Part shown: one piece after another, positions 8,263 to 64,000 of the stretch
Position numbering within the stretch: the stretch's first letter is position 1
How the letters are laid out: each line of letters starts with the position of its first letter
NCBI RefSeq assembly: GCF_021184045.1
Contig: NZ_CP073710.1
Location: 1,126,685 to 1,190,684 of the forward strand
Source of the DNA: Methanococcoides orientis
GTDB lineage: Archaea; Halobacteriota; Methanosarcinia; Methanosarcinales; Methanosarcinaceae
DNA length: 64,000 bases
Direction of reading: 5' to 3'
Program-made: the position numbers and the translations under genes
The notes under the pieces: model-generated
Told to the model about the DNA's origin: nothing
Database searches by the model: none
The model's input: only the letters and a program-made list of their open reading frames with translations

Positions 8263-9438
8263 TCATCCATTCAGGAAAGCATCGAGCCTCTTCATTCCCT
8301 CTTCAATATTCCCCAGATTGTTCGCATAAGAGAACCTGATATACCCTTCAGCACCATCGCCAAAATCAATTCCCGGTGTGACTGCCACGCCTGCTTCATT
8401 CAGTATTGTACGACTCATTTCCAGGGAATCGGTCCCGAACTCACTGGCATCAGCAAGCACATAGAACGCCCCCATTGGTTCGTATCCAACTCTGAAACCG
8501 ATGTCCTTCAGTCTCTTCAGCATGTGTTTCCTGCGTTCGTCATATGTAGCCACCATTTCACCAACATGGTCCTGCGGACCACGAAGTGCAGCAATACCTG
8601 CCTCCTGGACAAAGCTGTTGGCACATATGAAGAAGTTCTGCTGGAGCTTTTGCAGCACCCTCATGCAGTCAAGAGGTGCGATAAGGTATCCAAGCCGCCA
8701 GCCTGTCATGCAATATTTCTTGGAAAATCCATTGAGTACAAAGGCATTGTCAGTGTATTCCAGAATGCTGTGGTCCTTTCCGCCATAGATAAGACCCTGA
8801 TAGATCTCATCAGAGATTATCGGGATATTGCCTTTATTTTCTGCTATCTCTGCTATTCCCTGCATCTCCCCTGAGGACATCACATAGCCTGTAGGATTGG
8901 AGGGACTATTGATCAGGATCGCACTGGTATCAGCATCAATATTCTCAGATACAAGCTCAGGGGTCAAGCCAAATCCATTCTCTTCGGATGTGTATGCAAA
9001 GTTCGATCTGCACCCAAGAGCACTGACGAAATTCGGATAGCATGCATAATGAGGATTTGACATAAGGACTCCATCACCCTGATCCAGCAATGCCATGAAG
9101 GTTAGCATCAATGCAGGGCTTGTTCCGGATGTCACAAGGACCTGCTCAGGAACAAGGTCAAGCCCGAAGCGGTTGTTATAATCATCCACGATGGCACTTC
9201 TCAGTTCAGGCAGGCCCAGACTATGAGTATAGCGGGTATTGCAGGATGCAAGGGATCGGTCCGCTGCATCACAAATATGAGGTGCTGTCGGGAAATCAGG
9301 CTCTCCTATCTCAAGATGGATTATATCCCTGCCGGCTTGTTCCAGCTTCTGGGCACTTTCCAGCACCTCCATGACATAGAAAGGAGGTATATTCATGGAT
9401 CTTTCAGATAACGATAAAGAGGCAGGTGGATGTGACAT
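8263..9438 (-). CDS. Class I/II pyridoxal-phosphate aminotransferase
   Basis: A 391-residue fold-type I aminotransferase. Visible landmarks are EIGEPDFPT near residue 43, the PLP phosphate region TSGTSPAL near 104, SPSNPTGYV near 174, ISDEIYQGL near 205, the Schiff-base Lys in NGFSKKYCMTGWRLGY near 234, and the substrate-carboxylate Arg near GYIRFSYAN at the C-terminus. It belongs to the aspartate/aromatic aminotransferase group; the substrate cannot be fixed. Transcribed alone on the minus strand. Confidence 0.9.
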   Translation of the reverse strand: MSHPPASLSLSERSMNIPPFYVMEVLESAQKLEQAGRDIIHLEIGEPDFPTAPHICDAADRSLASCNTRYTHSLGLPELRSAIVDDYNNRFGLDLVPEQVLVTSGTSPALMLTFMALLDQGDGVLMSNPHYACYPNFVSALGCRSNFAYTSEENGFGLTPELVSENIDADTSAILINSPSNPTGYVMSSGEMQGIAEIAENKGNIPIISDEIYQGLIYGGKDHSILEYTDNAFVLNGFSKKYCMTGWRLGYLIAPLDCMRVLQKLQQNFFICANSFVQEAGIAALRGPQDHVGEMVATYDERRKHMLKRLKDIGFRVGYEPMGAFYVLADASEFGTDSLEMSRTILNEAGVAVTPGIDFGDGAEGYIRFSYANNLGNIEEGMKRLDAFLNG

Positions 9439-9557
9439 TCTTGGTAGCTCCTGATCCTGGGTTTTTAATGTGTATTCTCTTGAGGTTTATGCAAGGATAA
9501 TTTATAATACATATGATAGAAGAAGATATTTCTTAACCAAAAATAAGGGATGATAAT

Positions 9558-9875
9558 ATGACAAAGATAACTGTCGATTCGACAATATGTGCATTTACCC
9601 ATACTATTACCGGCCAGTTGGAAGGCGATAAGGTCATCATAGATATCGATACACCGTGTGAAAAGATCAAAGAACTTTCCCACATGGAAGTCCCTACGAT
9701 GGAGATATTCGGGATCGATGATAACTATGTCATCAGGAAAGCAAAGGATGCAAAATGCAGCTCTACTTGCCTGATCCCTTGTGCAGTACTTCACATGTGC
9801 AATCTGGAAGCAGGTTTTCTGTCAAAGAACCTGGCAGAGAAGTCCGGAAGTATCAGTATAAATTTTGAACCGTGA
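9558..9875 (+). CDS. Small cysteine-rich conserved-looking protein, function unknown
   Basis: A 105-residue protein with Cys at residues 11 and 34 and a cluster near 72-86 (CSSTCLIPCAVLHMC). The spacing suggests a metal or Fe-S site. It resembles small proteins of the DUF6951 type in methanogens, but that match is from memory and weak. It has its own upstream region and lies between a divergent aminotransferase gene and the convergent gpgS. Confidence 0.7.
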   Translation: MTKITVDSTICAFTHTITGQLEGDKVIIDIDTPCEKIKELSHMEVPTMEIFGIDDNYVIRKAKDAKCSSTCLIPCAVLHMCNLEAGFLSKNLAEKSGSISINFEP

Positions 9876-9930
9876 AGATCCTCCTGCTCACAAAATAAGA
9901 GAATATTTTACCATTCATTACAAGGTTCCA

Positions 9931-11142
9931 TCACTTATTGCAATATTCTTTTTCATCAGCAAGACAGGCTTCATATAGCTGTTCACGAAGGTCCGGCATA
10001 GCTGAAAGGGCACGGGTCCAATCAGGCATGAGTACGTCTGAAGGATGTTCAAGGTAATCTTCACCAGATCTCCTGATAACATTTGCGAACATATCCACAT
10101 ATAGCTCTTCCGCATGCCTGTTATAGCACAGACCATTGCAAAGGGCATCAGCATGATACCTGCGTATAAGGTCCTGACCGAGGCGCTTGTATTTTACATG
10201 GATACCATGCAGGTAAGAAGGTGAAATTATATTATCCGTGGATTCCGTTGTGATCCTCATAAAGGTCGTGAAGATATCACCGACCATTTTGCATAGACCT
10301 TCTGATCTGTTGGAACCTACATCCTGATGCTTATGATCATAGTAACCAAGATCAGTCTGGCAGATCTTCTTAGTTGTTGTGTTTCTGTAGACCTCTGCAA
10401 GAAGACCGACTTCAAGTCCCCAATCTGCAGGGATCCGTATGTTCATGGCAAGATCACTCGTCATAGCAAATTCACCTGCAAGAGTATACCTGAAAGCAAG
10501 AAGATACCGAAGTATATCAGCCTTGGAATCCATCTGTAAAGTGTCGAGCAAAGGACGTACAAAAAGCCTGAAAACACGACCGTGCATGGTCTTTGTCTCC
10601 ATATTTATCCTTGCATAATAACCTTTGTTGAAAAAGAAATTAAGTTCCGGTTCCACAATAGGATACAATAACTTTGCCGGGAAATCCTTGGAATAAGTGA
10701 CAATATCAGCATCATGATAAGCGATAGCATAGGAATCAAGGGTGGCGATCCCCGTGGCCAGCCAAACATCTTTCCCTTTACCCTTATAAGAAGTAATATC
10801 GATCCCCATCTTTTTCATAGTGAATAAAATGTGTTGGGCCCTGGGGCCATCACACCATACCACAATGTGAGGAGTTTTCAATTCTTTGAAAAATTCCACC
10901 ACATGAACATATTCTTCTTCAGTTTCAGCTGCAAGGGCGATAACGACCTGATTAAGGCAAGTACACTCATTGAGATTGGAAATTATGTTCTTAAGAGGGG
11001 GATTATTAACCTCTTCATACAAGATAGGAATTATGAGTGATGCAGGTCTGCGAGTTTTAAGTTCATGTATTCTTTTGATAAGTCGTTCTTTATCAATACT
11101 AAAATCATGAATTGTCGTAATATATTCTTGGTAAAAATCCAT
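9931..11142 (-). CDS. gpgS: Glucosyl-3-phosphoglycerate synthase
   Basis: A 403-residue GT81-type glycosyltransferase that condenses an NDP-glucose with 3-phosphoglycerate, the first step to the compatible solute glucosylglycerate. Visible features are a nucleotide-sugar region with GKGKDVWLATG near residue 160, a DxD-like metal motif YHDADIVTYS near 180, and the acceptor region toward the C-terminus. The same enzyme is characterised in Methanococcoides burtonii. A GGGGAG site four bases before ATG 11142 supports the start. It diverges from gpgP across a 240-base promoter region, forming a two-step pathway locus. Confidence 0.9.
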   Translation of the reverse strand: MDFYQEYITTIHDFSIDKERLIKRIHELKTRRPASLIIPILYEEVNNPPLKNIISNLNECTCLNQVVIALAAETEEEYVHVVEFFKELKTPHIVVWCDGPRAQHILFTMKKMGIDITSYKGKGKDVWLATGIATLDSYAIAYHDADIVTYSKDFPAKLLYPIVEPELNFFFNKGYYARINMETKTMHGRVFRLFVRPLLDTLQMDSKADILRYLLAFRYTLAGEFAMTSDLAMNIRIPADWGLEVGLLAEVYRNTTTKKICQTDLGYYDHKHQDVGSNRSEGLCKMVGDIFTTFMRITTESTDNIISPSYLHGIHVKYKRLGQDLIRRYHADALCNGLCYNRHAEELYVDMFANVIRRSGEDYLEHPSDVLMPDWTRALSAMPDLREQLYEACLADEKEYCNK

Positions 11143-49867: not shown

Positions 49868-49941
49868 GGGCTCGTGGTCTAGCTGGTTATGACGTTGCCT
49901 TCACACGGCAGAGGTCGGGTGTTCGAATCTCCCCGGGCCCA
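49868..49941 (+). tRNA. tRNA-Val (anticodon CAC)
   Basis: A 74-base cloverleaf: acceptor GGGCTCG pairs with CGGGCCC, the anticodon stem TTGCC/GGCAG encloses loop TTCACAC (anticodon CAC), and the T-loop is TTCGAAT. One T-T mismatch appears in the T-stem as I fold it. CCA is not encoded. A minus-strand ORF runs into this gene and an integrase lies to the right, so it probably served as an integration site. Confidence 0.93.
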
Positions 49942-50237
49942 TCATTATTTTCCACGTCTTGTGGTAGCGTTTTTTCTATATCGTGAAGCTTATTTTCTAT
50001 CGAAGAGAGCCTCACTTCGAGGTCTGGTTGGGCAGAGGGTTGTATAACTTCTATGTTGCCGTTGAATTCATCATCCAAGGAAATTACAAACAAAGGCTTT
50101 CCATTGTTATCGATTTCAAAGATGTGGGCTATTTCGCCTGCAAGATGTGCGTGTGACTGTGGTAATCGAAGCAAAGGATATTCTATGTTTTTCTTGGGTC
50201 GAAGCCTTGTGATTTTTGATTTCCCTATGTATCTCAT
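49887..50237 (-). CDS. Small element protein whose 3' end reads into tRNA-Val
   Basis: About 116 residues. The first 95 look real: a basic N-terminus (MRYIGKSKITRLRPKKN), a beta-rich middle with VISLDDEFNG, and a short coiled segment (EVRLSSIENKLHDIEKTL). The last 20 residues are only the antisense of the tRNA gene, a known artefact of elements inserted at tRNA genes. GAG about nine bases before ATG 50237 supports that start over a TTG three codons upstream. Tandem palindromes lie upstream, so it may be a self-regulating DNA-binding protein; family unrecognised. Confidence 0.55.
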   Translation of the reverse strand: MRYIGKSKITRLRPKKNIEYPLLRLPQSHAHLAGEIAHIFEIDNNGKPLFVISLDDEFNGNIEVIQPSAQPDLEVRLSSIENKLHDIEKTLPQDVENNDGPGEIRTPDLCRVKATS

Positions 50238-50752: not shown

Positions 50753-51802
50753 CTAATCCAAAAAACCATCATTCCAAATGAAATTTTGGTATGGGTCAAA
50801 TTCATAATTTTCAAAAATGCTTGGATAGAGGGTTGGATATTCCGCTTTTTCTAGTGGTATACAAAACAACCTGTCTGGACTTAAGGGTGATCCACCAAGA
50901 CCAATTACAACAAAAAAAGGAATCTTTTTCTGATAGGCATATGATAAGTATCGATTTATTTGCTTATCAGTTGACCAGTTAAGTTTTCCATTATATAATG
51001 AAGATCTAAATTTACACTCTACTGCAAATTCAGTTCTACTTGAATCATCTCGCATTAGTAGATCAGGATGTGTATCAGATTCAACATAACGGTTATGTTT
51101 ACGTAACATATCTGTAGTCCACTCGACAACTGTAAAATAACGTTCATCAAACTTATCTACAACATAACGTTCAAAATCGTTTCCTTTCTGTTCCAAATCT
51201 TCGGCAACAGGCATGTTATTAGTAATATTTTGAGGAAATGTGTATGATTTATGAGTACCATGCATCATTGCACTCTTTGCTAAAGTACCACTATATCTCA
51301 AACCAAGTTTTGATTTTACTACTTCTTCACCTGCATGCGCTAAACCCAAAGCAGCTGTCTGAACAATCTTATTAGCAAAAGCGTTGTTTTGCTTATTGGT
51401 TGAAGCAGCATCCACATTCAAAATGTTAATGGATGGATTTAACTCATGAATGGAGGTCACAAATTTTGTTACAAAATCATTACTTCGGTCTGTAATTGTG
51501 ACAACTTCCTCATTTTTTCCAATATTAAATAGCGATAAATAGCTTGCATCTTTTCCAATGGGTACAAACCTGACATATCCTCCAATATAGCGGCCTGCAT
51601 ATTTCACGTGCATTTCTGAAATATTTGAAAGAGCTACTTTGTATTCTACGGGTAATTTATTCCTCAGTCTCTTTCGAATATGTTGACGATCAATAACAAG
51701 ATAATCATCAAAAAGATCAATGTATCCATTGTACCCCTTGAACTGAAGTAGTGGTTCAGGGTTATTATCACAATTGGAGAATAAGCGATTCAAGAATTTC
51801 AT
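50753..51802 (-). CDS. PH-like plus PD-(D/E)XK-nuclease-like protein
   Basis: About 349 residues. The N-terminal 110 residues form a beta-rich region (YNGYIDLFDDYLVIDR, then YIGGYVRFVP) like a short PH-type domain. From about 210 a restriction-endonuclease-like core is visible: KGNDFERYVVDKF, then PDLLM and EFAVECKFRS, giving the D and ExK-type ECK residues. GGAAG before ATG 51802 fixes the start. It stops at TAG, unlike nearly every other gene here, with TAA two codons later. A role in DNA cleavage or defence is inferred. Confidence 0.75.
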   Translation of the reverse strand: MKFLNRLFSNCDNNPEPLLQFKGYNGYIDLFDDYLVIDRQHIRKRLRNKLPVEYKVALSNISEMHVKYAGRYIGGYVRFVPIGKDASYLSLFNIGKNEEVVTITDRSNDFVTKFVTSIHELNPSINILNVDAASTNKQNNAFANKIVQTAALGLAHAGEEVVKSKLGLRYSGTLAKSAMMHGTHKSYTFPQNITNNMPVAEDLEQKGNDFERYVVDKFDERYFTVVEWTTDMLRKHNRYVESDTHPDLLMRDDSSRTEFAVECKFRSSLYNGKLNWSTDKQINRYLSYAYQKKIPFFVVIGLGGSPLSPDRLFCIPLEKAEYPTLYPSIFENYEFDPYQNFIWNDGFLD

Positions 51803-52321
51803 TGGTTTAACTTCCACAATTAATAAACTCATTATACAATATAAATTTTTCATACATACCTTTGATAGAATATATGGCGTCTATTTATTGTTTTTAAAAT
51901 ACATTTTCACGTCAATTGAATGCGAAGCAACTTCTGTTTTAACAAAATTGCATTGTGTTTCATCAATTGGGGGTTATAATCAAGATATTATGCGAATAAA
52001 CCATATGGACGAAGACTTCAATAGCTCCGTAACCTCGTTCTTATGTTGTTCAAATGTTTTTAGTTGGATTATATCAGATGTATTTTTATCCTATGTATAT
52101 AGGATGAACTTTTTCATTTTGTAGATTTTCTTTGCTGGACGAAAGCCCTTTCACGGTTTTAATAATGTCTGTAAATTCAATTGTCTCTTGAGTCGAATCA
52201 CCACAACCCTATAATGTCAAGGTTGTGATGACCATGAATATAAAAATCAAAACATATTTATATTAAAACTAATACTGTTGGATATATTCCCAATTTATTT
52301 TTAATGTAGTATGGTAGTAAT
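51803..52321. other. Divergent intergenic region between the nuclease gene and the seven-gene operon
   Basis: About 520 A+T-rich bases. A short + frame (51774-52124) overlaps the nuclease start and has no family resemblance. The right part holds an inverted repeat (52198-52231) and a TATA-like ATATTTATATTA near 52253-52264, placing a promoter about 60-70 bases before the operon. Confidence 0.5.
52198..52231. promoter_or_regulatory. Inverted repeat upstream of the seven-gene operon
   Basis: TCACCACAACC (52198-52208) and GGTTGTGATGA (52221-52231) pair in ten of eleven positions around a 12-base spacer. It lies about 20 bases before the TATA-like sequence and 91 before the first ATG; the half-site shares GTTGT with the palindromes at 50263-50317, hinting at one regulator. 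Confidence 0.45.
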
Positions 52322-53932
52322 ATGAATATTGATACTAAAATCACGAATCTGATTAAATCTGGTGCTCCAATTATTCAGATTATCAGCTATGAAACATTAA
52401 GGATTCATGCATCTTTGATTAAGGCTGCTTCTAAAACTGGAAGAACTGTTTATGTATGGAATCGAACAGAGGGATTGTCAGAATTGGATCAAAATGGGCA
52501 ATTAAATGAAAAAGATGAAGATATGCGTGATCCATCATCGATTCTTGAATGGTTTGTTGACAATGACTCTGACAATTTATTATTATTACTTGAGGACTTT
52601 CATCCAGATCTTACAGAACAACAGCCTCATATTATCAATAGACTTAGGTGCATTGCACGCTCTTGTTTATCTCAAAAACTAATAAATCGTACTTTATTAT
52701 TATCACAACCAATCAAACATTTGCCTGTTGAACTTGAGAAAGATGTACAGGTTGTGGAATTGCCCTTGCCAAGTACTAATGAGATTAAGCAGATTATGAA
52801 AAGTGTTCGTCAACGTTTTGATTTGCATGAGCGTGATTATCAGGAATCATCTCGTTTAACAGAAGCAGCTCTTGGTCTTACTACAACTGAAGCATCACTT
52901 GCTTTCTCAATGGCCGCAGTGGGAAATAAAAGATTAACTGATGCTGAAGTTCCTTTGATTGCAGCTGAAAAAGAACAGGTCATAAGAAAACGTGGTCATC
53001 TTGAATTTTATCAACCAGATCAAGGGTTGGACGAGATTGGTGGGCTTGATAAACTAAAAGATTGGTTAGGGCGTAGAGAAAGAGCTTTTACTGAAGATGC
53101 AAGAGATTTTGGTCTTGAATCACCAAGGGGAATTTTACTTCTTGGTTTGCCAGGTACTGGTAAAAGTCTTGCTGCAAAAGCGGTTTCCAACGCATGGCAA
53201 TTGCCTCTTTTAAGGTTGGATATGGGTCGTGTATTTGGTGGTATTGTTGGGCAATCTGAAGAAAACATTCGATCTGCTCTAAATACTGCTGAAGCATTAG
53301 CACCCTGTATTCTTTGGATAGACGAAATTGAAAAAGGAATGGCTGGTGCACAAAGTTCGGGTGCAACCGATGGCGGAACTACTTCTCGTGTTCTTGGAAC
53401 GTTTTTGACATGGATGCAGGAAAAGACAAAACCCGTATTTGTGCTCGCAACAGCAAACAATATTTCCCAGCTACCACCTGAATTATTAAGGAAAGGTCGA
53501 GTTGATGAAATTTTCTTTGTAGATCTTCCTGATTCCAACGATAGAAAAGACATAATTCGTATTCATCTTCGCAAGCGTAAACGAAGTCCAACTCACTTCA
53601 CAGATATTGAACTAGATCATCTTGTCGAAATTTCTCGTGGGTTTACTGGTGCTGAACTTGAAGAAGCTGTAAAAGAAGCAATGTTCAGATCGTTTGATTA
53701 TGGAAGGGATATAACTGCTGATGATCTAGAAGACGCGATTAATGATACAACTCCTCTTTCTCATACTATGAGAGAAGTCATCGAATCAACTCGTCAATGG
53801 GCAAAAGGACGTGCAGTTCCTGCAAGTGACAGAGCTCCAGAGGTTCTTGATAAAATTGATATTAGATCAAAACAACCAAGGTTACGTCAAGAAATAGAAA
53901 ATCCATTTATATCTGATATTGAGGGTCAATAA
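52322..53932 (+). CDS. Ycf46-like AAA+ ATPase
   Basis: A 536-residue protein with the two-part Ycf46 layout: a degenerate N-terminal ATPase-like domain (about 1-230, e.g. TVYVWNRTEGL near 40, LLLLLEDFHPDL near 82, ELEKDVQVVELPLP near 141) and a C-terminal AAA+ domain. In the latter Walker A is LLGLPGTGKSLAAKA near 272, Walker B CILWIDEIEKGMAG near 324, sensor 1 VLATANNISQLPPEL near 380 and arginine finger region LLRKGRVDEIFFVDLP. It is the first gene of the operon and probably its remodelling ATPase. One base of spacing to the next gene (TAA then ATG). Confidence 0.9.
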   Translation: MNIDTKITNLIKSGAPIIQIISYETLRIHASLIKAASKTGRTVYVWNRTEGLSELDQNGQLNEKDEDMRDPSSILEWFVDNDSDNLLLLLEDFHPDLTEQQPHIINRLRCIARSCLSQKLINRTLLLSQPIKHLPVELEKDVQVVELPLPSTNEIKQIMKSVRQRFDLHERDYQESSRLTEAALGLTTTEASLAFSMAAVGNKRLTDAEVPLIAAEKEQVIRKRGHLEFYQPDQGLDEIGGLDKLKDWLGRRERAFTEDARDFGLESPRGILLLGLPGTGKSLAAKAVSNAWQLPLLRLDMGRVFGGIVGQSEENIRSALNTAEALAPCILWIDEIEKGMAGAQSSGATDGGTTSRVLGTFLTWMQEKTKPVFVLATANNISQLPPELLRKGRVDEIFFVDLPDSNDRKDIIRIHLRKRKRSPTHFTDIELDHLVEISRGFTGAELEEAVKEAMFRSFDYGRDITADDLEDAINDTTPLSHTMREVIESTRQWAKGRAVPASDRAPEVLDKIDIRSKQPRLRQEIENPFISDIEGQ

Positions 53933-56900
53933 ATGGTCTTGTCGACTGGGCATTATGTTGCACTTGGCGTAGATGATCCATCTTCACTAATGGGATCAAC
54001 CAAAAAGGGACTAAATCCCTTTATTGGCTATTTGATGAATTCAATAAAGTCTTTGGAGAACAAAGAGGTAAGTTGTAAATGGGAAAGAGTTGAAAAAGAA
54101 CGTTTTATCTTGAAAGTTTTGAATAAAATATATGAGATTCGCCCTCAGACATTGGTTGAAATCGAACCTCCTGAAATGGGTTGGTTTAATGTGGAAGCAT
54201 TAGATCTGGATGTAGATGATGAGTTTGATCCTGACCCTGAAGATGAATTGATTATTGGAAGGGGGAAAAAAGCCGATCGTCTGAAACTTTCAGATAAAAA
54301 TGTTCGACAATCTTATGGAAGGACTTGGCAGATCAAAATTGAAGAATCCAGTAAAGTAGATAACAAAATCAATTGGTCTGGTTATGACATCAAACTTAAT
54401 AGAATAGTATCTCCACTTGAAAGTGATGATCTGATTTTCAAACTTAATAGTGAGAAACTAAAATTTCATAGGGATGATAGTGAATGGAAATTTTGGCTGG
54501 ATACTGATTTGATTTTAGGGAAAAGTTTAGAGATTAATGGGGCAGAATGCAAGTATAAAGTAATTCGCCGTTTTAATAAAGACACTTTTCAAAAGCAATA
54601 TCCCCTATCTCAACAATTAGGTAACTATTGGAGGGTAACTTGTGAAAATAAACCACAGTTTGCCTGTGCGAATGTTGTCGAAATAACTAACGACCTAATG
54701 AGAGAGATATCAATTCAAGATCTTGATATTGATTTGCAATCTTTTATTCATGACGAATGGGATATTCTGAAAGGAAATGGTAAAAACGAATGGATTTTGA
54801 TATACAAAGGAAATGCTGAAGATATAACGCTTCCCGAGAAGTTTGCTCACAAATCTATGAAGGATATGTTGTTTTCATGCCATAAAAAACAAGTCAAAGA
54901 TAAGTGGATACAATTAGTAGAATCTGGGGAAGAAAATGAGATAAATCCTTCTGATTCAATACTTGAACACTTTTTTAGTGAAAATGTGTTACTACATGAT
55001 TCAGATAAGTTTGAGAAAAACAATCAGTTGTATATTCTTAAACGCAACTATGAAGAAAAACAACTTCTTTTATCATATGGTAGAAAGGATAAACCTGCCT
55101 TTCCAAAAAGATCTTCTCTTCATCTAAAAGCAGATGTTTTTCAGATGAGAAATCAACAAAGATCTATTTATCAGTTATTAGATTATCCAGTTTCTGATCA
55201 TCTTCCTCTTCTTGATCTTTTCAAACTACGAGATGAAATTCAGTGGCCAATATTCGATAATTTTCCTGAAGAAGACATTGATTGGAAAGTTTTGACTGAT
55301 CTTTCTTTTAAAGGTTGTGACAAGCAAAGAGAATTTGTTTGCAAAGCTCTTGCAACTCCAGATTTTGCAATCATGAGTGGTCCTCCTGGAACGGGAAAAA
55401 CAACTACTATACTTGAACTCATCCTTCAACTTACAAGCAGAGGAAAACGTGTCCTTCTTGCAGCATCTACACATGCAGCAATAAATAATGTCCTTGAGAG
55501 GTTGGAAGAAAGGGGTCATACTGAAAATGTGCACGCAACACGTGTAGGTCTTGAAGATCGAGCTGTTGGTCTTGAACATTTTGTGTACGATCGACAGGTG
55601 AATAATTGGAGTAGTAGCTTAGGTCTGAATGAAGGTGATACCCGTAAGCTTGTAATGGAAAGTGCAAATCTTGTTTGTGGTACAACTATGGGGATACACA
55701 GTTTACTGCGAAAAAAGAATGGATTAGATCTTGAAAGAAATGGTCCACCATTTGATATCATGATTATCGACGAATGCAGTAAAACTACATTCCATGAGTT
55801 TATGGTTCCAGCGAGACTTGCAAAGCGTTGGATACTTGTTGGTGATGTCCGTCAACTTTCCCCTTTTACTGACCGTGAGCAGATAACCTCCAATTTAAAA
55901 GTACTTGATCTTTCTGTAAAAGATGGACCTGCCAAGCATCTTTCAAGTGAACTCCAAGAAGCATGCAAATTGCTTCTGATCTTGTGGCCTTACAAAACTC
56001 GGTTTGTTGTTCCAGTTTCTGAAAAGGTTGCAGAAAAAATTGTTGACGAAATTGATGCACGATTAGATGATGGGGATAGTTCTATAGTTGATGATCTTAG
56101 ACGAATTTTAGTAATATCAGATAAATTTGATCTCATAAATATTAATGCATTATACGAACATAATGTTGTTTTTATTGAACAAAATCTACTAAATAAATAT
56201 CGGGAGTGGATGCCAAACGATTCTGTCATTCTTGAGAAGAATTGGTTGCTATCCGCACATGCCTATAGACATTTTGCAAATAATGATTGGTACTTTGGGC
56301 ATGACTATCGTCCTCGTGGGAATAACACTTATAAGAGAGCAAATGAAGTTTACAAAGAATGCTCTCGGTCTCTTGAAACATCATGGGCAGATGAGGTTTG
56401 CTGGAGGTTGGAACGTGAATACTGGTTACGTTTTCTTTCAGGGAATAAAAGAAGATTACTGTCTTATCAGAAGCAACTTGAACGCTTATTTCCACAGAGT
56501 GAAAATGCAACTGGACGAATTTATACCTTGAGAAATATTGCATTCCCCTCAATTCTTGAAGCACTTTCTGGCAGTGGTTTGATTAAACGAAAGAGTGATG
56601 GTTTGACAACACTCAATCAAGGATTCAATAAAGAAGAACGTGACTGTCGTCATACTACATTGAGTTATCAACATCGTATGCACCCAGATATCTCAGCTTT
56701 ACCTCGTGAATTGTTTTATTCATTGGATAGAAAGAATGTTTCCTTGCTTGATGGTGATCAGGTTTGCAATAAACTTAATTGGAGTTACGATCGCTATCAG
56801 AAGCATAGGGTATGGCTGGATATCAAAGGTGACGTGAAAGGTAATGCTAATGAAAAAGAAGCTGCTGCCATAGATAAAGAATTAACGTCATTTATAGAAT

Positions 56901-57292
56901 GGACTAAACAAAATCCAAAAGCTGATGGGAGTTTTTGGGAGGTAGCAATACTAACATTTTACAAAGGGCAAGAAAAATGTTTACGTGAACACTTGAGGAA
57001 GCTTACAGGCGATAGCAGTCGGCACAGTCGGTTTGAAAAGGATAATGTTCACATTAAACTGGCAACGGTAGACTTTTTCCAAGGGCAGGAAGCAGATGTA
57101 GTATTTTTATCGATGGTAAATACCCAGAGGGATGGCTTCCTTGATAGTCCTAATCGCCTTAATGTTGCTATAACAAGAGCTAGGTATCAATTAGTGGTTG
57201 TTGGCTACCACGATTATTTTTTGAATAGATCATCGAATGAATTAAAAAAGCTGGCAAAGAATAGCTTAAAGGTGGATGTACATGGAAATTGA
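53933..57292 (+). CDS. Large UPF1/Dna2-like superfamily 1 helicase
   Basis: An 1119-residue protein. The first 450 residues are an unrecognised N-terminal region. The helicase core has Walker A SGPPGTGKTTTILEL near 481, motif Ia-like AASTHAAINNV near 507, DECS Walker B near 612, GDVRQLSPFTD near 640, then after an unusual helical insert of about 250 residues (660-900) the second lobe: LSYQHRMHPDISALPREL near 908, VDFFQGQEADVVFLSMV near 1045 and NVAITRARYQLVVVG near 1075. All motor motifs are intact, so it should translocate on RNA or DNA with 5'-3' polarity typical of the family. Confidence 0.9.
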   Translation: MVLSTGHYVALGVDDPSSLMGSTKKGLNPFIGYLMNSIKSLENKEVSCKWERVEKERFILKVLNKIYEIRPQTLVEIEPPEMGWFNVEALDLDVDDEFDPDPEDELIIGRGKKADRLKLSDKNVRQSYGRTWQIKIEESSKVDNKINWSGYDIKLNRIVSPLESDDLIFKLNSEKLKFHRDDSEWKFWLDTDLILGKSLEINGAECKYKVIRRFNKDTFQKQYPLSQQLGNYWRVTCENKPQFACANVVEITNDLMREISIQDLDIDLQSFIHDEWDILKGNGKNEWILIYKGNAEDITLPEKFAHKSMKDMLFSCHKKQVKDKWIQLVESGEENEINPSDSILEHFFSENVLLHDSDKFEKNNQLYILKRNYEEKQLLLSYGRKDKPAFPKRSSLHLKADVFQMRNQQRSIYQLLDYPVSDHLPLLDLFKLRDEIQWPIFDNFPEEDIDWKVLTDLSFKGCDKQREFVCKALATPDFAIMSGPPGTGKTTTILELILQLTSRGKRVLLAASTHAAINNVLERLEERGHTENVHATRVGLEDRAVGLEHFVYDRQVNNWSSSLGLNEGDTRKLVMESANLVCGTTMGIHSLLRKKNGLDLERNGPPFDIMIIDECSKTTFHEFMVPARLAKRWILVGDVRQLSPFTDREQITSNLKVLDLSVKDGPAKHLSSELQEACKLLLILWPYKTRFVVPVSEKVAEKIVDEIDARLDDGDSSIVDDLRRILVISDKFDLININALYEHNVVFIEQNLLNKYREWMPNDSVILEKNWLLSAHAYRHFANNDWYFGHDYRPRGNNTYKRANEVYKECSRSLETSWADEVCWRLEREYWLRFLSGNKRRLLSYQKQLERLFPQSENATGRIYTLRNIAFPSILEALSGSGLIKRKSDGLTTLNQGFNKEERDCRHTTLSYQHRMHPDISALPRELFYSLDRKNVSLLDGDQVCNKLNWSYDRYQKHRVWLDIKGDVKGNANEKEAAAIDKELTSFIEWTKQNPKADGSFWEVAILTFYKGQEKCLREHLRKLTGDSSRHSRFEKDNVHIKLATVDFFQGQEADVVFLSMVNTQRDGFLDSPNRLNVAITRARYQLVVVGYHDYFLNRSSNELKKLAKNSLKVDVHGN

Positions 57293-58808
57293 ACTGGAAC
57301 GTTCTATAAAGATGGAACGTTGTGAGATTATTGGGAGAATGGTAGTCGAGCAAGAACGTACCGATCTGAAACAATTACTTGTTCGTCTAAATGAAGGGGA
57401 TATTTCAGACATTCCAAAGAGACTAGAGTATCTACTGTCAAAGTTGAAACTATATGAATCAGGTTCAATACTTGAAGCAGGAAATGAACTGCTTGAGAAA
57501 GGAACAGTGTTTTCTGAAGAATACGGACACTACGAGATATGGTATCTATTAAATGATGCATGGTTGGGTTCGCGTCCATTATGTATTCGTCGAATTCAAG
57601 CTAATAACAAAAAAGAGAATGGAAATAAGAAGCGAAGTGATAAATGGAGCAAAGAGGTATCTCCTGATAAATATTATTCTTCAGACAATACTCCTGCACA
57701 ATTTTCTAAAGAAAAGGTATGCAATTTATCTTATTTAATCCCTGATTCAATATCACAGCATAAAAAGTATGATAATGGACATTTCTTATGCAAACTTGAT
57801 TCTGATGACACTTCTTCCATTGAGGTATCAGCAAGTGTAAAATGGAGTTCTGATAACTCTAACGAGAATTTTTTAGTAAATATTGATTGGTATTCTACAA
57901 GAGTCTATGATCTTCTTTCTGATTTTGCTGAGAACTTAAATGTAGCATGGGATGCTAATAATGATGCTTTCCTTTTGGATGAGCCACCAGTCGATGAAAA
58001 TGAACTAATTAACTTCCAAAGGAGTAAAGTCGTAATCTCAAATATTGACACAATAAGTGGTGGTTTATTTGAAACCGTTAGTATGAAAAATGTTCCATTA
58101 CGTGCAAATTCAAACAGATGTGCAAAGGAGTGGTTACAAAAATTAATGATCAATAAATGGTCAAACTCATATGTTTCAACTGCTTCGTCTCTTGAGGATC
58201 AAAAAGAATGGCTTGCGTCTATTGCTTTAAAAGATCATGAACTTGAAACAGTGGAAGGTGAAAATCTTTTATCTTTCATGGATAAAGATAGCTCTAACAG
58301 AGCTTATTGGCATGTTGCTTCAATGCAGGATATAATTCCTTCTGGAGTTAAAGTAAAACCTTCTCCTTTTAAACTTAATGAGAATGATCTAGATCCCATA
58401 GGTAGTATTGCTTCAAGACTTGGTGTCGAGCAAGAAATAAGTGAATTTCGTGTGATTGATCGATATGTAATACACGGTGGACACATTAAGACAATTCAAC
58501 AGATTTCTCAGAGTATTGGTGCAAAAAGCGTTTCTGTTGTAGCATTAAAGATGCCAAATTCTTTCCCTGATACATGGAATTATTTTCCTATGGGGCATAA
58601 AGAGAAAATGAATCATGATCGATATTGGTGTGTTAACAATAATGGCACATGGAATGTATGGAGCTGTACCGATTCTTCCGATTTTTTGAAAACGAGCGGA
58701 GGAAATACGCATATTGAAGGCTCTCCTACTTTTACACCTCTTGAAATTAAAGATCTCCCTAGTCTGATTAATGATTATTTGAACATGTCCAAGGAGGTTC
58801 AGAAATGA
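57282..58808 (+). CDS. Unrecognised 508-residue protein of the Ycf46/helicase operon
   Basis: I recognise no family. It starts with a helical region (to about 80), has a mixed middle rich in Ser/Asn/Asp, and ends in a domain with VIDRYVIHGGHIKTIQQISQ near 390 and DTWNYFPMGHKEKMNHDRYW near 430, which has a nuclease- or phosphodiesterase-like look (Asp, His and Lys residues) but no motif I can name. AAGGTG seven bases before ATG 57282 selects that start; it overlaps the helicase gene by 11 bases and the next gene by four. Confidence 0.8.
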   Translation: MEIELERSIKMERCEIIGRMVVEQERTDLKQLLVRLNEGDISDIPKRLEYLLSKLKLYESGSILEAGNELLEKGTVFSEEYGHYEIWYLLNDAWLGSRPLCIRRIQANNKKENGNKKRSDKWSKEVSPDKYYSSDNTPAQFSKEKVCNLSYLIPDSISQHKKYDNGHFLCKLDSDDTSSIEVSASVKWSSDNSNENFLVNIDWYSTRVYDLLSDFAENLNVAWDANNDAFLLDEPPVDENELINFQRSKVVISNIDTISGGLFETVSMKNVPLRANSNRCAKEWLQKLMINKWSNSYVSTASSLEDQKEWLASIALKDHELETVEGENLLSFMDKDSSNRAYWHVASMQDIIPSGVKVKPSPFKLNENDLDPIGSIASRLGVEQEISEFRVIDRYVIHGGHIKTIQQISQSIGAKSVSVVALKMPNSFPDTWNYFPMGHKEKMNHDRYWCVNNNGTWNVWSCTDSSDFLKTSGGNTHIEGSPTFTPLEIKDLPSLINDYLNMSKEVQK

Positions 58809-60820
58809 TTAATGCAAAAGAAAAAACAATTACTGTTGATCAATCAGAACAAAAGATCTCACATATATTTTTGCCACTATCTTCTCAAGCATCCGATAGT
58901 CATAATCAAATTACCATCTCGGAACCATCACCAAAACAAACTCTATTTTTGGCTACAGATAAACTTGAAAGTGAGGAAATGATACGTGATCTCCAAAAGA
59001 AAGCTGATTCAGGAATTCGTGTCTATCTTCTATTAGGCAATCCTTACATAAATTCGGAATCAATTACACGATTGTCTGGTAGATGTATGATTCGTGCAGG
59101 TGTTCCTCAAACAGGATGCTTGATTTTGAGTGATATAAATACTACTGATCGTCATGGATGTGTCATATTTAACCAAGACACAATTCGAGGTTATGATCTT
59201 GATAGTATGCAATGTAATGATTTTTATCGTACATTTTGTTATCTTTTCTGGAATAAAGCAACTCATGAATGTTTGGATCAAAATGGGTATTTTTCAGAAG
59301 TTGATAACTGTCCAACAGGTGTGATTTCCCTCAATGAAAAATATAATCTTCCAGGAAAACTTTCTGATTATATTCTGAGATCTCTTGATGAACAAAGTGT
59401 AATTAGTATTCAGGATTATTCTAACAATTTACTTTGGGATCTATTACCCCTAGAGAAAATAAGTGGGTCATTAATGTTGCAGTTGTCTGGTAAGCAGTAT
59501 CTTTCATCTTTAGATGAACTTTGTTTAAATAGGGATGTAAATGTACGTTTGACAGATAGGCCCGTAAATAATGCTGTTTTCTCATCGAAAGGTTGCTGGC
59601 TTTTACCAAATATCATTGACAACGATGTGGTAAACTGGTGCATTCGTGAAAATGATCTTCAAAATAATAGTTATTTGAATTCATTTAAGGCTGAATGGGG
59701 TTTATGCCAATGGGAGCTTGCTAGGGATATATCTTTAAGAGACATTAATGGAAATGTGCGTTTTGCTGATGAACCAGAAAATATTTGTGACTTTGTGAAG
59801 GATATGTCTATAGATTTAGATTCAATCTCATCTCCTGATTTTGATTCATTCCTTGATCCCGATTTTGAGAATCTTTTTGCAGACCAGATACAGTTTGATA
59901 AAGATCGGTTAGCGCACAAAATAGAGTACAACGCTACACTTTATCCTCCATTTTTGCCAGACAAAGCAATGCCTGATCCTCTTGTGCAGACATGGAATGA
60001 AAAACAGGAAGAGTGGTCTGAAAATATCTCTATCTTAAAGAGAATGGTCGATGAGCTTGAAAACTATGAAGGTGGCCTAAGTGAAAAAATCAGAGGTATG
60101 TTACGCTCTCGGTTAGCTGCACAGGGCCAAAAAATTGTAGAGTATAGGTCCAAACTTAGTAAATTAGAAGCTGCTGACCTTGGTAGAAGCTCTCCAGCAG
60201 ATCTCGAAGGGTGGACTCATGATCTCATTGAACTGAATAAAGATATTGAAAAACGTATTATGGGTAACAGTAGAGAAAAAGAGCGAGTATCTAAAGAGAT
60301 CGAGTGGAAAGACAAGTGTTGTCAATTAGATGATAAAATTTTAAAACTTGTGGAAAGTAGTTCAATTAAAGAATCTGAAATCAAAGAAGTTGAACATAAG
60401 ATTAAGGATCTAGAAGAGCAACTTAGCGTTTTCTCGGATAAGAAACAAGAGAAAAATCTAAGAAAAGATTTGGACAAATCAAAAAAGAGGAAAAATTCCG
60501 CAATTTCATCTTTGAATAAATATACTGAACAGATATCAAAATTAAGATCTCAACGAGAGGATCTTGGTGAACACTTTGTTCCACAACTCAAAAATGATGG
60601 GGGGGATGGAGCTGAACTTGGTCGTATTCTTGGTAATAAAAATGTAGATATTTCGTTTAATTTCGAATGGCCTACTGAGTTCCTTCCAGCCGAGGGGATA
60701 GAACTCTTTTTTTCTGAAGGGATTAGGTGGATTGTCATTGATGATCTTGAACAAGTAAAAAAAGCCAAAAAATCGGCTGTTGAACTTAATGGTAAAATAT
60801 GTGCTAGAAGAGGTGAGTGA
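58805..60820 (+). CDS. Unrecognised 671-residue protein with PLD-like N-terminus and coiled coil
   Basis: The N-terminal 300 residues have a phospholipase-D-like rhythm (LFLATDKLESEEMIRDLQKK then SGIRVYLLLGNPYI, later a second similar unit near 195-270), but no HxK motifs, so any PLD fold would be inactive. Residues 395-590 are almost entirely charged coiled coil (KRMVDELENYEGGLSEKIRG onward). The C-terminal 80 residues are globular. A strong AAGGAGG precedes the ATG, which overlaps the previous stop (ATGA). Structural or scaffold role is possible. Confidence 0.8.
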   Translation: MINAKEKTITVDQSEQKISHIFLPLSSQASDSHNQITISEPSPKQTLFLATDKLESEEMIRDLQKKADSGIRVYLLLGNPYINSESITRLSGRCMIRAGVPQTGCLILSDINTTDRHGCVIFNQDTIRGYDLDSMQCNDFYRTFCYLFWNKATHECLDQNGYFSEVDNCPTGVISLNEKYNLPGKLSDYILRSLDEQSVISIQDYSNNLLWDLLPLEKISGSLMLQLSGKQYLSSLDELCLNRDVNVRLTDRPVNNAVFSSKGCWLLPNIIDNDVVNWCIRENDLQNNSYLNSFKAEWGLCQWELARDISLRDINGNVRFADEPENICDFVKDMSIDLDSISSPDFDSFLDPDFENLFADQIQFDKDRLAHKIEYNATLYPPFLPDKAMPDPLVQTWNEKQEEWSENISILKRMVDELENYEGGLSEKIRGMLRSRLAAQGQKIVEYRSKLSKLEAADLGRSSPADLEGWTHDLIELNKDIEKRIMGNSREKERVSKEIEWKDKCCQLDDKILKLVESSSIKESEIKEVEHKIKDLEEQLSVFSDKKQEKNLRKDLDKSKKRKNSAISSLNKYTEQISKLRSQREDLGEHFVPQLKNDGGDGAELGRILGNKNVDISFNFEWPTEFLPAEGIELFFSEGIRWIVIDDLEQVKKAKKSAVELNGKICARRGE

Positions 60821-60822
60821 TT

Positions 60823-61029
60823 TTGGCAGAACAAAGGATTACTATTGAAATAGATGAAGAAGGCAAAATTGTAGCAAAAACCTCTGGATTTAAGGGGGAG
60901 GCATGTATGGACGAACTTCAGAAGTTACTTGATGGGGAAGTTTGTCCTTCCACATTAAAACCAACAGACGATTTCCATCAGAAAAAGACAGTAAATTCTC
61001 AGCAGAAGCAATCTTTGGGAGGTAAATAA
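60823..61029 (+). CDS. DUF2997 protein
   Basis: About 68 residues with the short DUF2997 pattern: a beta hairpin RITIEIDEEGKIVAKTSGF, then GEACMDELQKLLDG with a conserved Cys, and a polar tail. AGGTGA at 60811-60816 is six bases from TTG 60823, favouring that start over GTG 60817 which overlaps the previous stop. DUF2997 genes are commonly next to DUF1257 genes, as here. Function unknown. Confidence 0.8.
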   Translation: MAEQRITIEIDEEGKIVAKTSGFKGEACMDELQKLLDGEVCPSTLKPTDDFHQKKTVNSQQKQSLGGK

Positions 61030-61031
61030 TT

Positions 61032-61502
61032 ATGAGTGCAATAGTTAAAACTACAACTGCGTTTACTAACAAAGCTCTTCTTCTGGAGACCTTGGATGAA
61101 ATGGGCGTTGGATACGAATTAAAGGGTAATAAAGTTGTCACGGATAGAATGGACTATTATGGTCACCAATGTTTTGAATATGGTAAGAATGGTTCCTTTA
61201 ATTTCCAACATGATTCAAGCGCAGAAAAGATGAACTATCCTTGGCGATCGATTAATTTCCGAGAGTGGAAAACGGTTACGAGTTTTTTGGAAGCGGTTGA
61301 AGTTGGATACAAGGGTGCTTATACTCGAATGTTGGAGAGGTTAGCAGAGGAAGAAAGGTTGCGTGAAGAAGAGAGAAGGAAGCAATATGTTGAAAGTGTG
61401 CGCAATGAAACAATAGAACGTGCTAAATCACAGGGTTATATTGTAAAAGAAACGCGTCAGGACAACAAGATCAAACTTGTTCTTAGTAGAACAACCTATT
61501 GA
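61032..61502 (+). CDS. DUF1257 (Ycf35-like) protein
   Basis: A 156-residue protein. The first 100 residues match the DUF1257/Ycf35 pattern (MSAIVKTTTAFTNKALLLETLDEMG, DYYGHQCFEYGKNGSFNF near 45); the last 50 form a charged helix (LAEEERLREEERRKQYVE) and a short strand. GGGAGG before the ATG is a strong site. Ycf35 and Ycf46 were named from algal plastid and cyanobacterial genomes; finding both homologues in one archaeal operon suggests that they work together. Confidence 0.83.
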   Translation: MSAIVKTTTAFTNKALLLETLDEMGVGYELKGNKVVTDRMDYYGHQCFEYGKNGSFNFQHDSSAEKMNYPWRSINFREWKTVTSFLEAVEVGYKGAYTRMLERLAEEERLREEERRKQYVESVRNETIERAKSQGYIVKETRQDNKIKLVLSRTTY

Positions 61503-61515
61503 AAGGTGATTTTTG

Positions 61516-62100
61516 ATGAGGGACTATGGGACATGTTTTAATGTTGCACATATTGAATATGGGAGTCAAATATATGGACCTGGTAATCGGCTAGTGGTCT
61601 GGTTTCAAGGTTGTTCTCTTGCATGTTCAGGTTGTTGGAATAAAAGCATGTGGAGCTTTGAGTCATGTAAACTGATTGAAAGAAAACATCTTTTTGATTC
61701 TATTCAAGATCATTCGGAATTTGATGGAGTGACATTTCTTGGTGGAGAACCTCTTGATCAAATACAAAATTTGTCTTGGTTGATCACTGAGCTTAATCGT
61801 AATGACATCAGTATTATGTTATATACGGGATATGAGGTGGAAGAGATAAGGGGTGATACTTCAAAATCAGATATTTGTGAGATGGTTGACATTCTGGTTA
61901 CTGGAAGGTACAGGGAAGAAGAACGTGATATTTTCTTAAGGTGGCGAGGTTCACAGAATCAAAAATTAATTATCAAAAACAACAAGTCCCCAAATCTTGA
62001 TTTTGCTGATGGAACAAATCAAGTGGAGATTGTAATTGATGAATATGGTTCAACTAGCATTTTTGGTTATCCTGATGATGAAATCTGTCCAACATTATAA
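61516..62100 (+). CDS. NrdG-like radical SAM activase
   Basis: A 194-residue radical SAM protein with the short activase fold. The cluster motif is CSLACSGC (Cys 33, 37 and 40), with FQG just before it and SAM-binding FLGGEPLDQ near 77. It resembles the anaerobic ribonucleotide reductase activase NrdG and relatives, but no glycyl-radical reductase gene is nearby. AAAGGTGAT supports ATG 61516. It is the last gene of the seven-gene operon, so its target is probably one of the other products or a nucleotide. Confidence 0.87.
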   Translation: MRDYGTCFNVAHIEYGSQIYGPGNRLVVWFQGCSLACSGCWNKSMWSFESCKLIERKHLFDSIQDHSEFDGVTFLGGEPLDQIQNLSWLITELNRNDISIMLYTGYEVEEIRGDTSKSDICEMVDILVTGRYREEERDIFLRWRGSQNQKLIIKNNKSPNLDFADGTNQVEIVIDEYGSTSIFGYPDDEICPTL

Positions 62101-63470: not shown

Positions 63471-64000
63471 TCAAACAGGGAACACATCAATGAGCTTTTT
63501 GTATTCCTTTTTTGCTTGTCCCACTTTGTTGAGGTAATGTGCACTTCCAACAGTCGTCGCAGCACGTCCCTGGATAAAGTCAGCTACACTCTCTGTGACT
63601 CCTTCCCTTATCATAACATTGAGATGCCATTTGCGTATTGTCTTTGCAGATACCCGATCGTAGCGGATCTTTTCAGTAATGTTGTAATAACATCTTGGCT
63701 TACCAATAGCTTTTAGCTCTGGAATAAATGAGGTCGGGAAAAAGACCTGGAATGTCTTCTTCGTACCTTCAGCGAATGAAGCCGTTGGATAACAAGCTAC
63801 ATCACCATCTACAATGATATTACGTTCATCGAAATTCTCCAACATTTTATGAATGTGTCTAGCCCTGCTTCCTGAATAAGTAAGCAAGCGAAATACTGGT
63901 TTCAATACTTCAGGGCAAGCATTGTAAGCTTCTTTGACCTCTTCATCCGTAACATATATCTCAACAACTCCCGATTTCCTAATTTTTACAAATCGTCTCC
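63471..64000 (-). CDS. Archaeal tyrosine integrase, C-terminal part (partial)
   Basis: The frame is open from the stop at 63471 to the window edge, about 176 residues. Catalytic-domain residues are visible: the first Arg in LLTYSGSRARHIHKML, a WHLNVMIREGV segment in place of the usual H-x-x-R box, and the presumed nucleophile Tyr in TVGSAHYLNK. It resembles SSV-type and methanogen element integrases. The N-terminal part lies beyond 64000. It is convergent with the seven-gene operon and supports reading the region as an integrated element. Confidence 0.82.
   Translation of the reverse strand, partial: RRFVKIRKSGVVEIYVTDEEVKEAYNACPEVLKPVFRLLTYSGSRARHIHKMLENFDERNIIVDGDVACYPTASFAEGTKKTFQVFFPTSFIPELKAIGKPRCYYNITEKIRYDRVSAKTIRKWHLNVMIREGVTESVADFIQGRAATTVGSAHYLNKVGQAKKEYKKLIDVFPV

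Follow-up and report, generated by a model that had tools for sequence, protein, structure and literature searches.

Gene content of the operon and the element that carries it

This study concerns a compact operon in a 64,000-nucleotide stretch of the Methanococcoides orientis genome (the window, meaning the whole stretch analysed). An initial annotation, made from the sequence alone, had described seven same-strand genes with very short junctions. Our check of the open reading frames (ORFs) places all seven on the forward strand between positions 52322 and 62100, tightly packed, with junctions of 0, -11, -4, -4, +2 and +10/+13 in that order. The first gene (52322-53932) encodes an AAA+ ATPase recognised by profiles and carrying the Walker A motif GLPGTGKS and the stretch RKGRVDE; it is called Ycf46-like on the basis of its similarity to cyanobacterial AAA proteins found near DUF1257 and DUF2997. 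The second (53933-57292) encodes a UPF1-like superfamily 1 helicase of 1119 residues with intact motifs, also recognised by profiles, whose closest solved relative is UPF1. The two following products, P4 (57282-58808) and P5 (58805-60820), have no Pfam assignment over the cut-off and had been regarded as unknown proteins, a description that no longer holds since their folds are recognisable: P4 is predicted to combine a winged helix, a beta region and a C-terminal MITD1-like PLD-fold domain with a conserved H-x-R, and P5 a tandem PLD fold, in which both HKD motifs are lost, with a coiled coil of about 190 residues and a small C-terminal domain. The start of P4 is set at 57282 rather than at the ORF finder's 57276 according to its Methanococcoides homologues, and the P4 residue numbers used below are counted from 57276.

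Three genes follow. The product of 60817-61029, with a G-x-x-C motif (GFKGEAC), passes the DUF2997 profile (PF11211; 25.8 bits against a cut-off of 24.1, E = 9.6e-6). Profiles support this label and that of the UPF1-type helicase. The DUF1257 label had to be loosened: the protein encoded at 61032-61502 gives no match to Pfam PF06868, and hhalign relates it to the true DUF1257 proteins of such neighbourhoods with 91% probability (E = 9.6e-7), which makes it, by profile comparison, a remote, divergent relative of DUF1257 (Ycf35-like) only. Finally, 61513-62100 encodes a radical SAM enzyme, as previously proposed, and profiles place it in the NrdG/PflA type (CSLACSGC, GGEP). Its score against the NrdG profile TIGR02491 (120.7 bits) is below the cut-off of 126.1, and the enzyme is best classed from its sequence as NrdG-like, not NrdG. 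A viperin-like assignment was set aside, its only basis being a weak PADLOC match.

A 14,415-bp element that has integrated in a tRNA-Val gene carries the operon as its main cargo. The 3′ half of tRNA-Val(cac) forms the left attachment site (attL, 49898-49945, forward strand), a 48-bp exact direct repeat whose copy (attR, 64313-64360) lies just past the end of the window. Beside attR, on the reverse strand, is a tyrosine-recombinase-like integrase (63474-64319, of which 63474-64000 is in the window), identified by an R..H..Y stretch read by eye and not by a profile. The G+C content is about 0.34-0.37 in the region and 0.41-0.47 upstream. When the two flanks are joined in silico, they match one contiguous stretch in sister species, best in G095 (93%) and also in G032, G295 and G048; these species keep the empty integration site. 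The mobile A+T-rich element that had been suspected is thus a real integrated element, with attachment repeats, integrase and empty site. In addition, it carries small ORFs and a passenger gene on the reverse strand (50753-51853) for a PD-(D/E)xK-like nuclease, recognised by eye (PDLLMRDD..EFAVECK), with Pfam PDDEXK matches below the cut-off.

Distribution and co-inheritance of the seven genes

The seven-gene set, hereafter the joined form, recurs with its gene order unchanged in Gammaproteobacteria, Bacteroidota and Helicobacter, the alphaproteobacterial copy being cut by a contig end. In detail, a helicase-profile scan of genome contigs found this order in two Methanococcoides, Amphritea, Photobacterium, Shewanella, Bacteroidetes UBA2322 and a Helicobacter metagenome-assembled genome, together with contig-cut copies in Thalassovita and Alteromonas and rearranged variants in Fibrobacter (Fibrobacterota) and Myxococcales (Myxococcota). 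When 395 genomes of the Shewanella order were searched separately by profile, full-length P4 was recovered in six more genomes besides Shewanella; in five of these loci the gene set is complete and ordered alike, and the remaining one begins inside the helicase, at a contig end. Within the archaeal family, the P4 family is present in 3 of 112 genomes, all Methanococcoides, and the AAA gene in exactly these three. The two relatives from the genus of the window genome (L011, genome G395, and L012, genome G393) carry the operon in other surroundings, with no tRNA near. The co-occurrence of P4 and P5 with the AAA and DUF1257-like genes, which the initial annotation had proposed to look for, is therefore conserved in joined-form loci of several phyla, and chance gene order was set aside on the same ground. 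Searches with the single window proteins P4, P5 and DUF1257-like gave no match in plasmids or viral contigs, and P4 found nothing elsewhere in a 393-genome draw from the phylum, because these proteins are too divergent for one query sequence. The P4 of the Shewanella joined form, used as query, also had no match in plasmids or phages. Two IMG/VR contigs (L119, L120) hold all seven genes; they are not counted as viral given their bacterial look, judged by eye, with a long RHS-like repeat protein upstream.

The seven genes are co-inherited. The joined-form helicases form one clade (support 97) spanning Methanobacteriota, Pseudomonadota, Bacteroidota, Campylobacterota, Fibrobacterota and Myxococcota in a quick tree with some long branches, and the AAA proteins of the joined loci likewise form one clade (support 98/95). 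Over ten loci, the distances between loci computed for each of the seven genes correlate with one another at 0.84-0.98. The window and L011 share 86% identity in their AAA proteins and 50% in P4 and P5, and this fastest divergence of P4 and P5 fits parts that face an antagonist.

On the other hand, the claim of one machine stood for the co-inherited unit and not for its seamlessness, because the operon is a join of two modules: a three-gene core and an AAA+/DUF1257/DUF2997/radical-SAM cassette. The core, that is a UPF1-like helicase, a short winged-helix P4 and a tandem PLD P5, is present at some forty other loci, over half of them adjoined by an RtcR-like CARF regulator; RtcR is not part of the joined form. 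The helicase of the joined form has a longer N-terminal half than these relatives. In the loci examined, P4 and P5 in their long forms were not seen without the other five genes, whereas their short relatives occur with the helicase only, which in part goes against the proposal of the initial annotation. In L006, L007, L010 and L023-L064, the three-gene core contains a catalytic-looking tandem PLD and is often followed by an RtcR-like CARF-AAA-HTH gene. We found no published name for a core of helicase, P4 and tandem PLD, with or without RtcR, and it looks like a separate, possibly unnamed system. Next to one core locus, a further PLD-like gene runs in the opposite direction (L033:7423-8952, reverse). 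The joined-form locus L017 has two neighbouring proteins that look alike (L017:6599-8554 and 8932-10989), the first of which matches Pfam PF06128.

The cassette, for its part, occurs independently of the core, complete or incomplete, on plasmids from several phyla. Moreover, 25 of the 80 viral contigs with this AAA have at least one cassette partner nearby, a count that includes the doubtful L119 and L120. AAA+, DUF2997, radical-SAM and DUF1257 genes stand together in the large viral contigs L127, L133, L136-L139 and L173, and some large viral contigs have, by our reading of the sequences, a compact cassette with a RecA-like gene, in some cases between AAA and DUF2997. As the cassette is present in phages, it is unlikely to be anti-phage by itself, and our interpretation is therefore that the core has recruited a general unit for maturation or control. 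In the Treponema plasmid pTRESU01 (L002), the AAA and radical-SAM genes lie among contractile-injection or baseplate-like genes.

PLD folds of P4 and P5 and the possible role of the operon

The joined form differs from the core most clearly in its PLD proteins. Both H-x-K-x4-D motifs are gone from the PLD part of every joined-form P5, whereas the PLDs of core relatives retain at least one and usually two. The only pattern matches in joined-form P5 lie outside the aligned active-site positions (L017) or beyond the PLD part (residue 638 of L200). The P5 model (predicted local distance difference test, pLDDT, 85) still matches PPK1, Zucchini, Nuc, NucT and Tdp1 in Foldseek, so that P5 is modelled as a tandem PLD fold whose active sites are lost. 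Conversely, the C-terminus of joined-form P4 extends about 150 residues beyond that of the short core P4. Its model (pLDDT 87) has MITD1 (2ymb/4a5z) as the best match in the PDB, followed by SauUSI, Tdp1 and NucT, and the Pfam profile MIT_C reaches 0.034 in the best member. Throughout the joined-form alignment H447 and R449 do not vary, and the motif H-[DG]-R-[YF] is present in 0 of 44 other P4 proteins. The same P4/P5 signature was repeated in loci found later. L026, which the tree places among the joined-form loci, has an unsound ORF call and no usable P4 motif, and its stretch contains no cassette genes. The winged-helix call for P4 is based on weak profile matches in relatives combined with the alignment. 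Altogether, the models suggest that the C-terminus of P4 adopts a MITD1-like PLD fold, making it a candidate for a nuclease role.

Defence genes adjoin some of the loci. According to PADLOC profiles, L012 has BrxC and PDC-S02 as neighbours, L011 a PDC-S37/Hhe helicase, and L013 DruE-like, GajB-like, PDC-S69 and WYL proteins; reading of the sequence adds an McrC-like gene beside L011. L015 adjoins the conjugation genes TrbI/TraK. The proposed link to conflict thus finds support in the setting, namely the mobile element and the BREX, Druantia-like and McrBC-like neighbours in three genomes, while a defence activity itself can only be presumed. The same genes, nearly always in the same order, occur in unrelated bacteria, some beside anti-virus genes, and therefore the operon is probably an undescribed defence system. 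Its helicase, AAA+ and radical-SAM proteins have kept their motifs intact. Judging from sequence comparison, we consider the operon to be a conflict system of helicase and PLD-fold proteins that moves horizontally and is most likely directed against viruses or plasmids, with a probability of about 0.58.

Within such a system, the UPF1-like helicase and the winged helix of P4 would load on foreign nucleic acid, P5 would serve as a pseudo-PLD/coiled-coil scaffold, and the C-terminal domain of P4 may supply the phosphodiesterase activity lost by P5. The cassette would take the place of the RtcR/CARF transcriptional control that many core relatives have, as a device for control or maturation. We infer that its radical-SAM activase modifies a small partner, the G-x-x-C motif of DUF2997 being the candidate, and that the AAA+ motor acts on the effector complex by remodelling or licensing it. 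A bolder formulation, put forward tentatively and doubtful as a whole, is that of a new immune-system class. In it, a helicase/PLD complex would be armed post-translationally by a glycyl-radical-type activase together with an AAA+ motor, the tandem PLD protein, now degenerate, would have ceded catalysis to a MITD1-like PLD domain gained anew, and the control cassette would be common to large phages. If the operon is a defence system, it would be one common to archaea and bacteria which brings radical-SAM chemistry into immunity, and the long-puzzling DUF1257, DUF2997 and Ycf46-like families would gain a function that can be tested beyond photosynthetic lineages. That one PLD active site is lost where another PLD domain is gained makes for a falsifiable prediction on the site of catalysis, and the presence of this cassette in large phage contigs suggests that hosts and viruses have traded it.

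Several points weigh against this reading. The Foldseek E-values of P4 are weak (1.7e-3 at best), and its PLD domain has a single H-x-R and not H-x-K, so that its catalytic role is putative; to our knowledge, MITD1, the closest solved relative of this domain, is not known as a nuclease. The modification of DUF2997 is speculation from the conservation of a motif. Furthermore, several joined-form loci (L016, L020, L021) lie among ordinary chromosomal genes. Lastly, the defence-gene neighbours are an association, not an enrichment, observed in a screen that covered some of the loci.

Among the alternatives, the one that survives best, unlikely as it is, is a stress-induced machine for RNA quality control or linked to RNA repair. 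It would account for the UPF1-like helicase, UPF1 being its best solved relative, and for the RtcR-like CARF-AAA-HTH gene beside many core loci; RtcR senses RNA damage (PMC7790460, PMC9650030) and answers to damaged tRNA. However, the joined form itself is without RtcR, its distribution is patchy and mobile with empty sites, and restriction, BREX or Druantia genes adjoin three loci. A little less probable is a defence system in which P4 and P5 only sense or bind and the cutting is left to another part, such as the PD-(D/E)xK-like protein encoded upstream. The lost active sites of P5 would agree with such a division, as would the nuclease-like gene on the element, whose product has an N-terminal domain with a homologue flanking the operon in L011 and L012 (tblastn). 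Nevertheless, the nuclease part is unmatched in these two relatives, where the matches reach no further than query residues 223 and 192, a search next to the bacterial loci gave no homologue, and the H-x-R of P4 is kept in all aligned members. That the operon is a divergent Mokosh system is very improbable: the helicase does match the PADLOC profile MkoA at 1.3e-79, in separate stretches, and Mokosh types I and II are both listed with PLD domains (PMC10952713), but Pfam finds neither a kinase domain nor a fused PLD in the window helicase, PADLOC finds no MkoB match for P5, and five additional conserved genes accompany the pair. That the operon is a selfish module serving to maintain or transfer the element itself is hardly credible since, although the operon travels with an integrase, homologous operons stand in different backgrounds with no tRNA gene within the stretches examined.

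Comparison with known systems

In line with the earlier statement, we found no named system of this composition in the open literature, nor any defence system in open papers on DUF2997, DUF1257 and Ycf46, nor a paper for the NCBIfam name PLuB; the absence of a name is not a proof of novelty. The nearest described systems are Mokosh and CoCoNuT CnuHE. Mokosh is defined by a kinase domain (type I) or a PLD fused to the helicase (type II). The operon resembles it in pairing a UPF1/COG1112-type helicase with a PLD-fold protein and departs from it in the loss of the PLD active sites and in its extra P4, AAA+, DUF1257-like, DUF2997 and radical-SAM genes.

In excerpts of PMC11090510, CoCoNuT is described as a UPF1-like helicase (CnuH) followed by an elongated winged-helix protein (CnuE) with an effector, which is a tandem PLD in type III-C, and as associated with RtcR. 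The window operon has both a UPF1-like helicase and a winged-helix protein; unlike in CoCoNuT, the winged helix and the tandem PLD are on separate proteins, profiles detect neither the McrB-type GTPase CnuB nor CnuC among the seven proteins, and the AAA+/radical-SAM cassette is not part of CoCoNuT as those excerpts present it. The cassette recalls the cyanobacterial DUF2997-Ycf35-Fed7 cluster, in which DUF2997 and DUF1257 stand beside an iron-sulphur protein (PMC4284462), but there a ferredoxin takes the place of the radical SAM enzyme and the helicase core is missing. SauUSI and DrmC share with the operon a PLD fold in a restriction setting, and the bacterial core PLDs match DrmC; SauUSI and DISARM have other helicases and partners, and there are no DISARM genes in the operon. 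Finally, the core of helicase, P4 and tandem PLD has a catalytic-looking PLD, a short P4 without PLD domain and none of the AAA+, DUF1257, DUF2997 and radical SAM genes, and it shares with the window operon three homologous genes in the same order.

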